A stretch of 64,000 nt of DNA. Source: an uncultured Formosa sp. (GTDB taxonomy: Bacteria; Bacteroidota; Bacteroidia; Flavobacteriales; Flavobacteriaceae). Shown here piece after piece: positions 959-4,176 of the stretch. The first letter of the stretch is position 1, and each line of letters begins with the position of its first letter. Location of the stretch: positions 1 through 64,000 of the forward strand of contig CAJXDP010000001.1 in NCBI GenBank assembly GCA_913052445.1, in the 5' to 3' direction. Below the pieces are notes generated by a model. It was given only the letters and a program-made list of their open reading frames with translations. It was not told the DNA's origin and made no database searches. The translations under genes were made by a program, and so were the position numbers.

Positions 959-3037
959 ATGATTCTAAATAAAAGTTTTTTAACGTTTATTTTAATTTTT
1001 ATTTTAGTTATGCATTCCTTTTCTCAAGGAATACAAGTAGATTCTACTAATCTAGTAAAACTTGAGCAAGTGTTTGTAACAGCAACTCGAACGAATCGTT
1101 TTATATCCACTCTACCACTTCCGGTACACATAATATCTAAGCGTGATATAGAGCAAGCTAATTCCGTTAGACTAAATGACATCCTGAACGAGCAAACCGG
1201 TCTAATTACAGTAAGTGATTATGGAGGTGGCGAAGGAATTCAAATGCAAGGGCTTGATTCACAATACACTTTAATACTTGTAGATGGCATGCCTTTAGTA
1301 GGGCGTCTTGCTGGAACATTAGACATTATGCGGCTAACAACCGCTAATATTAAAAAGATTGAAGTCGTTAAAGGCGCTTCATCTAGTCTTTATGGTAGTG
1401 ACGCAATGGGAGGGGTTATTAATATTATTACCGAGAACCCAGAAAAGGGCTTTAATGTGAAGTTAAATTATAGGCTTGAAACCTTTAGTACTGAAGATAT
1501 GTCAGCGGTACTAAATTATAAAAAAGCAAAGTTTGGATTGCGTGCTTTTTTAAATAAATACAGTAGTAATGGTTTTGATTTAAACCCAAAAACTGAACTA
1601 AAAACAGTAGATCCTTTTGTTAATTACACATTTAACCTAAAGACGGAGTATTCCTTTTCTAAACAGTCTAATTTTTATCTATCACTTAAGTATTTTAATC
1701 AAAATCAAGACTATAATGCATCTGCAATTTTGAGAGGGGAAAGCAGCATAAAGGAATGGAGCTCAAATCTTAAATTTACACGTGAGTTTAGTGCTAAATT
1801 AAGGGCTTATTTTGAGTTTTATGCAACGGTATTTAAAACAGATAACTATTTAATAAACTCTGAAAATGGGACTTTTTTTGATAGTAATTATTTTGATCAA
1901 CAATTAATCCGACCAGAGCTCAGAGTTCAATATAAATTCAATGAGGTCAATGAATTAATTGGGGGAATTGGGTATAGTCACGAATCTTTGGACCGCACTA
2001 ATTTTAGTGTTCAGCCTAAATTTAACGCTCCCTATGTGTATTTGCAATATGACAGTAATCTAACAAATGATATTAATATGATTATTGGGGCTCGCTTTGA
2101 TAGTCATAATAAGTACAGGTCTCAATTCAGTCCAAAAGCAGCGGTCAGATATAGTTTAAATAAAAAATGGTCTCTTAAAGGGTCTGTTGGATATGGCTTC
2201 AAAGCTCCGGACTTTCGACAATTATTTTTTGATTTCACTAATTCTACTGTTGGGTATACTGTTTTAGGATTTAATGTTGCTAATTCTGCGCTAGCTCAAT
2301 TACAATCCCAAGGAGAAATAGCGAATCTAATCATCTCTCCTTCAGATCTTAAAAATACATTAAGTCCCGAAAATTCCATAAGCACTAATATTGGCGTTGA
2401 TTATAAACTCTCACCAAAATTGAATTTTAAAGTCAACTTTTTTAGAAATAATATCAATGACCTAATAGATACCCGAGTTATAGCAAATAAAACGAACGGA
2501 CAAAATGTGTTTAGTTACTATAATGTCAACAAGGTTTATACTAGCGGTTTTGAGATTGATGGGAAATGGAAGCCGTTTAATCAGCTTAAAATTACTGGGG
2601 GATATCAGTTATTGTTTGCAAAAGATAAAGAGGCTGAAGCGGCATTTGAAAAGGGAGATGTTTACGCAAGAAAAGATCCAGTATCACCAGCATTTCAACT
2701 AAAAAAAGAGGACTATTTTGGGTTGTTCAACAGGTCTAGACACATGGTGAATTTAAAACTGTTTTATATGCTACCTAAATGGAAGGCTTTTGCAAATGTT
2801 CGTCTTACTTACAGAAGTAAATATGGACTATTAGATAGTAATGGGAATAATTACCTAGATGTTTATGATGACTTCGTAGAGGCTTACTCAATTCTTGATT
2901 TTTCTATTAATAAAACCTTTTTTAAAAATTACTCATTAAATATTGGGATTGACAACCTCTTTAATTTCACAGACCCACAGAATATTAGCAATATTCCGGG
3001 TCGAATTATATATGCAAAACTTAATATTAGTCTTTAA
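959..3037 (+). CDS. TonB-dependent outer-membrane receptor, probable haem/hemophore receptor (HmuR-like)
   Basis: This 692-residue protein has a signal peptide (about residues 1-23) and a TonB plug domain (about 35-150). The plug shows LPLPVHIISKRDIEQ, a DGMPLVG segment and ASSSLYGSDAMGGVINIIT, the classic plug end. A 22-strand-type beta-barrel follows, ending in an aromatic/aliphatic strand (YAKLNISL). There is no N-terminal CarboxypepD_reg domain, so it is a transport receptor rather than a SusC type. The hmuY-like gene follows after 10 nt, which points to haem or haem-protein uptake across the outer membrane. Substrate is inferred from context. A weaker -7-like sequence (TATATTTA, 933-940) lies upstream. 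Confidence 0.85.
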   Translation: MILNKSFLTFILIFILVMHSFSQGIQVDSTNLVKLEQVFVTATRTNRFISTLPLPVHIISKRDIEQANSVRLNDILNEQTGLITVSDYGGGEGIQMQGLDSQYTLILVDGMPLVGRLAGTLDIMRLTTANIKKIEVVKGASSSLYGSDAMGGVINIITENPEKGFNVKLNYRLETFSTEDMSAVLNYKKAKFGLRAFLNKYSSNGFDLNPKTELKTVDPFVNYTFNLKTEYSFSKQSNFYLSLKYFNQNQDYNASAILRGESSIKEWSSNLKFTREFSAKLRAYFEFYATVFKTDNYLINSENGTFFDSNYFDQQLIRPELRVQYKFNEVNELIGGIGYSHESLDRTNFSVQPKFNAPYVYLQYDSNLTNDINMIIGARFDSHNKYRSQFSPKAAVRYSLNKKWSLKGSVGYGFKAPDFRQLFFDFTNSTVGYTVLGFNVANSALAQLQSQGEIANLIISPSDLKNTLSPENSISTNIGVDYKLSPKLNFKVNFFRNNINDLIDTRVIANKTNGQNVFSYYNVNKVYTSGFEIDGKWKPFNQLKITGGYQLLFAKDKEAEAAFEKGDVYARKDPVSPAFQLKKEDYFGLFNRSRHMVNLKLFYMLPKWKAFANVRLTYRSKYGLLDSNGNNYLDVYDDFVEAYSILDFSINKTFFKNYSLNIGIDNLFNFTDPQNISNIPGRIIYAKLNISL

Positions 3038-3047
3038 ATAAATAACA

Positions 3048-3110
3048 ATGAAAACAATGAAAACAATGAAAACAATGAAAACAATGAAAACAATGAAAAC
3101 AATGAAAACA
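3048..3110 (+). repeat. Seven tandem copies of ATGAAAACA over the hmuY start codon
   Basis: The 9-bp unit ATGAAAACA is repeated seven times without a mismatch, encoding (Met-Lys-Thr)x7. Each copy contains a potential start codon in the same frame, and three more bases of the unit (ACA, 3045-3047) precede the array. Copy-number change would keep the frame but alter the distance from the promoter and the number of alternative starts. Confidence 0.95.
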
Positions 3111-3725
3111 ATTCAATTCATAATCTTAATCTCATTATTTACAGGATTTAGTTCCTGTAGTAATGATGACGATGAACCTTTAGTGGCAGTGGAATCTCAA
3201 ACTATCACTAACCTACAAGCTCAGCAAGCTGGTGGTCAAGGACAGCCTATTTCAGGAGCGTTTGCTAAATTTGATTTCTCAACAGGCCAAACAACAGAAA
3301 GCGACTCTGATTGGGATATAGCCTTTAGAGGAACTTCTATCATTGTAAATGGAGGTATCTCTTTGGGAACTATTGACGAGCCCGAGAGAACTGGTGAAGG
3401 AGCTGCCTATATAGCATCGGGCACAATGGCGTCTGTGATGGAAGTAAGTCAGGACTTATTTGTGCAAGATTCTGATACTGGATATGCAATTACCACCGGA
3501 AGTGAAAACGGTTGGTACTCTTATTCTGGGGCTCCTACATACTTAATAACGCCTATTCCAGGTAAAATTTTAGTATTTAAAACTAGAGATGGACGTTATG
3601 CGAAGGTGGAGATCCTTAGCTATTATGAAAATGCTCCTTCAGAACCTAATGCGTTTACAGATACGTCTCGTGTTTATACTTTTAACTATGTTTATCAGCC
3701 TAATTCAGGCATAACAACCTTTTAA
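3048..3725 (+). CDS. HmuY-family haem-binding lipoprotein
   Basis: 225 residues from the first ATG. The reading frame opens with seven MKT repeats, then a hydrophobic stretch and a lipobox (FSSC), followed by an acidic DDDE linker typical of surface-exposed Bacteroidota lipoproteins. The mature part contains SDSDWDIAFRGTSIIVNGG, the signature of HmuY-like proteins, which take haem from host or environmental haemoproteins and hand it to the TonB receptor. It sits 10 nt after that receptor and 1 nt before the DoxX-like gene, so the three are surely one operon. Because every repeat supplies an in-frame ATG, the actual start is ambiguous. The last ATG (3102) gives an ordinary signal peptide. Confidence 0.85.
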   Translation: MKTMKTMKTMKTMKTMKTMKTIQFIILISLFTGFSSCSNDDDEPLVAVESQTITNLQAQQAGGQGQPISGAFAKFDFSTGQTTESDSDWDIAFRGTSIIVNGGISLGTIDEPERTGEGAAYIASGTMASVMEVSQDLFVQDSDTGYAITTGSENGWYSYSGAPTYLITPIPGKILVFKTRDGRYAKVEILSYYENAPSEPNAFTDTSRVYTFNYVYQPNSGITTF

Positions 3726-3726
3726 A

Positions 3727-4176
3727 ATGAAAAAATCAATTAGTATTATTTTTATTGTACTTCGACTATTGCTAGGGGGTGTAATGATTGCTGGCGGAAT
3801 TGGGAAGTTTCTAAAGCCTGTACCATCTCCTACAGAAGTCCTGCAGAAGGCAGAAAGCTATAAATCTCCAAATGACACGCAAACTTTACAGAAAATACTT
3901 TACATAAGTGGTTCTAAGCAAACCGGTTACTTTTGGGAACTGTTAGGGGTTTGTGAGTTATTATTTGGCTTACTTCTAGTAATTCAGGGAACAGGCTTTA
4001 TTGGGGCTTTACTATTGCTTCCGATTTCATTAAATATATTTTTATTTCATTTATTTTTGGAACCTGATGAGGTTGGAGAACTTATTCAATGGGCACTATT
4101 TTTAACTATTAATATAGTTTTAGTACTTCATGAAAGAAGTAAATGGAAACACTTGTTGTGGATTAAGCCTATTTAG
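3727..4176 (+). CDS. DoxX-family membrane protein
   Basis: 149 residues with about four membrane segments. The first (LRLLLGGVMIAGGIGKFLKP) carries the DoxX-type glycine-rich start. It begins 1 nt after the hmuY stop codon and ends before the terminator at 4241-4268, so it is the third gene of the haem operon. DoxX proteins are small inner-membrane proteins linked to quinone or thiol redox chemistry. Its role in haem uptake is not established; possible jobs are haem handling or redox support at the inner membrane. Family call is good, function is open. Confidence 0.75.
   Translation: MKKSISIIFIVLRLLLGGVMIAGGIGKFLKPVPSPTEVLQKAESYKSPNDTQTLQKILYISGSKQTGYFWELLGVCELLFGLLLVIQGTGFIGALLLLPISLNIFLFHLFLEPDEVGELIQWALFLTINIVLVLHERSKWKHLLWIKPI

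Follow-up and report, generated by a model that had tools for sequence, protein, structure and literature searches.

A nine-base-pair start-codon repeat of variable length at the 5' end of a putative hmuY gene in an uncultured Formosa sp.

In the 64,000-nt stretch of DNA analysed here (hereafter the window; contig CAJXDP010000001.1, positions 1 to 64,000, assembly GCA_913052445.1 of an uncultured Formosa sp.), the hmuY open reading frame begins with ATGAAAACA repeated exactly seven times head-to-tail (3048-3110), each copy carrying an in-frame ATG, as a preliminary description of this DNA had stated. This array is probably a length-variable start-codon minisatellite, born by slippage and tolerated since the added Met-Lys-Thr (MKT) units fall in a cleaved signal peptide, with a modest effect at most. 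The array is real, and it is unusual in degree and ordinary in kind, an in-frame repeat of the slippage-born type; its distinctive twist is that what is repeated amounts to a complete start module, and this in a phylum that lacks Shine-Dalgarno selection. The features referred to below are as follows.

959..3037, + strand: TonB-dependent receptor gene, directly 5' of hmuY (ORF and Pfam).
1054..3722, + strand: region in which the DNA is about 98% identical to the sister genome G011 (locus L009), with the array inside it; identity on both sides is mostly about 84-93%.
3044..3112, + strand: complete perfect period-9 tract, 7.7 copies of AACAATGAA (Tandem Repeats Finder).
3048..3110, + strand: seven perfect copies of ATGAAAACA (Met-Lys-Thr), all seven ATGs in the hmuY frame.
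3048..3725, + strand: hmuY ORF from the first ATG, 225 aa, PF14064 HmuY (ORF and Pfam).
3102..3158, + strand: last unit plus conserved signal peptide MKTIQFIILISLFTGFSSC, where most homologs start with a single ATG (homolog comparison).
3727..4176, + strand: DoxX-family gene, a weak Pfam match, 3' of hmuY.

The period-9 tract (69 bp, 100% matching) scored 138 in Tandem Repeats Finder, against 62 for the runner-up array in the window, and 100 dinucleotide-shuffled versions of the window contained no run of three units, even when 3 mismatches were permitted. Perfect repeats of this kind are scarce in the source genome and in three sampled relatives: in 464 kb of the source genome, perfect tracts of three or more copies of a 6-30 bp unit number just two, the hmuY array and a 7-mer present 3.0 times, and nowhere else in the 1.73-Mb assembly do copies of ATGAAAACA follow one another, even as a pair. 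The seven units are uniform at silent sites as well, which indicates that the array is young.

The product matches PF14064 with 41.1 bits (gathering cutoff 27; E=2.6e-10, Pfam profile), which bears out its earlier assignment to the HmuY family, and it is a putative haem-binding lipoprotein; a single-sequence search for relatives of solved structure returned none. Read from the translation, the precursor has the layout MKT(x7)-IQFIILISLFTGFSSC-SNDDDE. It thus combines the two marks of a surface lipoprotein, a lipobox cysteine and, directly after it (FSSC-SNDDDE), a polar and acidic segment similar to the export signals SDDDD and SDDFE described for surface lipoproteins of Bacteroidota (PMC5080379). 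The homologous hydrophobic core of the signal peptide starts at the last MKT unit, so that additional units extend only the n-region of the cleaved signal peptide and the surplus ones would be removed with it. The earlier suggestion that the repeat can alter signal-peptide length therefore holds for the n-region only.

Between the stop codon of the receptor gene, which ends at 3037, and the first ATG of the array there are 10 nt, so that the receptor expected beside a HmuY-family gene is in place. Flavobacterium psychrophilum has an iron-regulated haem operon, hfp, in which genes for a receptor and a DoxX-family protein accompany that of the HmuY-like hemophore HfpY; HfpY binds haem, hfpY transcripts exceed those of hfpR, and the right amount of hfpY mRNA is reported to be important for full activity (PMC9331221).

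The start region was compared across 81 HmuY loci, i.e. the window and 80 homologs. A long upstream ORF (at least 200 codons) ends just 5' of the gene in 77 of them, and the first in-frame ATG after the upstream stop lies at a median distance of 18 nt (within 4-30 nt in 92%), the corresponding distance in the window being 10 nt. Most relatives have a single ATG at the start. The preliminary reading of the repeat as an array of in-frame starts was accordingly retained with a refinement: one ATG is the rule among relatives, and the first ATG is the likely main start, as its distance from the receptor stop is the conserved one. Six homologs (L010, L011, L014, L021, L027 and L028) start near the receptor stop and carry, ahead of the signal-peptide core, a long N-terminal extension that is not a repeat, and doubled ATGATG starts were seen in L018, L041, L045, L056, L077 and L028. 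HmuY relatives were not found on viral contigs.

Pairs of ATGs exactly 9 nt apart are more frequent at HmuY starts (11/81) than at generic starts (16/1222; Fisher p=1.6e-7), and also when compared with exported proteins alone (9/336; p=3e-4, or p=0.006 when 8 independent events are counted). On the HmuY tree these pairs need 8 changes, at least 6 of which are forced by supported branches, suggesting that they have been gained repeatedly, although some may be chance upstream ATGs and not duplications. Degenerate unit copies, e.g. MKTIKTI, occur in homologs L012 and L019. At generic starts a second ATG 9 nt further on is not over-represented, the 16 of 1222 lying under the interior rate, and the enrichment is therefore specific to HmuY starts; for the same reason a self-similar seed does not by itself commonly set off expansion.

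The gene is patchily distributed in the genus, being present in 2 of 18 genomes. The second carrier, G011 (contig CAJIZJ010000056.1), is the closest relative with a sequenced genome and belongs to a different species, its HmuY is 97% identical, and like the window genome it is apparently a metagenome-assembled genome (MAG). Its array has three copies, with flanks and junctions identical to those of the seven-copy array, and this difference of 4 whole units (36 bp) is the sole indel across the receptor and hmuY genes. The comparison of sister strains proposed in the preliminary description thus contradicts a fixed copy number for these two genomes, and the whole-unit difference favours the slippage origin proposed there. 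Synonymous divergence (dS) between the two is 0.034 for the receptor and 0.040 for hmuY, as against 0.56 for the DoxX gene; with so little divergence around the array (about 0.035, against 0.56 in the next gene), copy number must change fast. The breakpoints of the stretch of high identity lie near the signal-peptide region of the receptor and at the hmuY stop codon. Because the boundaries of identity are sharp, the receptor-hmuY pair was probably exchanged recently between the two lineages as a cassette, and the repeat number was probably altered after this exchange. The nearest HmuY homologs outside the pair have one clear copy, which places the expansion of the array on the lineage of the window genome and G011.

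Slippage is the mechanism that we infer. The ancestral start, ...AACA-ATG-AAA-ACA-AT(T/C)..., would have been self-similar at 9 nt: the AACAAT ahead of the ATG recurs at codons 2-4 and may have acted as the seed, with Ile4 one base away from ATG. Once two units were present, slippage would gain or lose whole units with the frame always intact, and recombination between units could be an alternative way of changing their number. Additional units would be tolerated because they add length only to the positively charged n-region, part of a signal peptide that is cleaved. As only this removed part varies, the same mature lipoprotein is expected from every allele, and as each unit brings its own start context, every allele should be translatable. 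Most initiation would be expected at the first one or two ATGs, because the ancestral distance to the receptor stop is retained there, with some further down, and copy number would alter hemophore dose or export only modestly. With a 9-bp unit and all seven ATGs in one frame, on/off switching through a change of frame is excluded, while the graded expression proposed in the preliminary description is conceivable; copy number, if it acts at all, probably shifts hemophore dose modestly and does not produce on/off phase variation, and it is a small dose effect that we infer.

In Flavobacterium johnsoniae, A at positions -3, -6, -12 and -13 stimulates initiation in place of Shine-Dalgarno pairing, and extra AUGs close to starts are under-represented in Bacteroidota (PMC6847099). 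The first ATG of the array has A at three of these four positions and ATGs 2 to 7 have it at all four, a condition found at 5.4% of starts in the source genome. The predicted folding energy around the first ATG is 0 kcal/mol, compared with a median of -6.4. Initiation at several of the seven ATGs is plausible, since each has a strong Bacteroidota context and the mRNA is predicted to be unstructured.

Arrays of three copies of ATGAAAANN (searched as two ATGAAAANN units followed by ATGAAA) were found in 10 of 397 Flavobacteriaceae genomes, and the reversed-pattern control gave no match in the same 397. Eight of the ten loci, hmuY included, lie clearly at a start codon, and all eight are signal-peptide or lipoprotein genes. 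By a simple rule, 61% of generic ORFs beginning ATGAAAA encode signal-peptide proteins, and this baseline makes eight exported products out of eight only mildly surprising (p about 0.02). With its seven copies, the hmuY array is the longest of the Flavobacteriaceae start arrays found. The other seven genes for exported proteins with three-copy start arrays are L148, L149, L150, L153, L155, L156 and L157; judged by eye from the translations, L157 is a SusD-like lipoprotein and L150 a PorV-like outer-membrane protein. Two matches were rejected as start arrays, that in G036 being a DEK repeat read in a different frame and that in G030 having no clear gene in the frame concerned. An exact array of three ATGAAAACA units was present in none of 395 genomes of the class besides the window genome; in the family sample, an amidohydrolase of G083 starts with two exact units and a truncated third. 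For comparison with congeners, G075 and G083 are the sole sampled members of their genera, and for the G037 protein a search for copy-number variation yielded no close SusD relative. The literature searched, with incomplete coverage, contained no description of start codons multiplied in the manner of hmuY.

An alternative to mere tolerance is that the array is a selected rheostat, in which unit number sets hemophore output: equivalent AUGs 9 nt apart would raise 30S capture past the receptor stop, giving more HmuY than receptor, and slippage would supply heritable dose variation. The strong context at each ATG and the open mRNA predicted there agree with this, as do the repeated gains of 9-nt ATG pairs at HmuY starts; the excess of hfpY over hfpR mRNA in F. 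psychrophilum and the reported importance of a correct hfpY mRNA amount (PMC9331221) point the same way, and the retention of seven AUGs is notable in a phylum that avoids AUGs near starts (PMC6847099). However, ribosomes cannot fill copies 9 nt apart simultaneously, so that gains should saturate early, and one ATG suffices in most HmuY genes. We hold selection for output to be unlikely. A broader form of the idea, which we put forward as speculative and consider unlikely, is that a start codon with its A-rich context forms a self-contained module in bacteria without Shine-Dalgarno selection, which slippage multiplies into a heritable, frame-safe translation rheostat for exported proteins, hmuY being the most expanded known example.

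Selection might instead act on secretion and not on initiation: with seven lysines in place of one, the n-region would be more highly charged, which would change how fast or by which route the protein is exported. That all eight clear Flavobacteriaceae start arrays are in signal-peptide or lipoprotein genes is in keeping with this, and so are the N-termini of L010, L014, L021 and L028, which are extended ahead of the core by sequence of another kind. The export baseline of generic ATGAAAA ORFs makes the first observation only mildly surprising, however, and the same data fit tolerance equally with benefit. In our judgement an export benefit is quite unlikely. That the copy number is simply wrong, through short-read assembly of a MAG, appears highly improbable: both genomes are apparently MAGs and 3 kb separate the array from a contig end, but assemblers usually collapse tandem repeats and do not expand them, the tract is shorter than a common read length, and in the independent G011 assembly, too, the ATGAAAACA unit forms a perfect array.

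If, beyond the slippage-born and tolerated minisatellite favoured here, copy number does alter output, the array would allow expression to be adjusted with the reading frame always intact, in a phylum whose ribosomes dispense with Shine-Dalgarno pairing, and it would serve as a natural experiment in start selection by such ribosomes where identical AUGs lie side by side. Should copy number have no effect, the n-regions of signal peptides would be a refuge in which start codons can multiply, which bears on the annotation of start sites.

In-frame coding minisatellites, or variable-number tandem repeats, occur in bacterial surface-protein genes. The hmuY array shares with them a perfect unit that is a multiple of 3, a number that changes without breaking the frame, a probable origin by slippage and a location in a surface-protein gene. 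Unlike them, it repeats the translation start itself, and with the repeat peptide in the cleaved signal peptide the mature protein should stay unchanged. Contingency loci of the Haemophilus type, e.g. licA with its CAAT repeats, have several alternative start codons, units that are not multiples of 3 and on/off frame switching. What licA-type loci and hmuY have in common is a short 5'-terminal tandem repeat and several possible ATGs, but the 9-bp unit cannot switch frames.

As in the hfp operon of F. psychrophilum, receptor, HmuY-family and DoxX-family genes adjoin in the window, although the order differs (receptor-hmuY-DoxX as opposed to hfpR-DoxX-hfpY), and the start-codon repeat of hmuY has no counterpart mentioned for hfp in the accessible part of its description (PMC9331221). 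The array resembles the A-rich, Kozak-like and Shine-Dalgarno-independent initiation of F. johnsoniae (PMC6847099), in that each unit provides the A at positions -3 and -6, while those at -12 and -13 come from the unit jointly with the one upstream of it. It departs from the phylum's pattern in offering six extra AUGs where these are normally under-represented near starts (PMC6847099).
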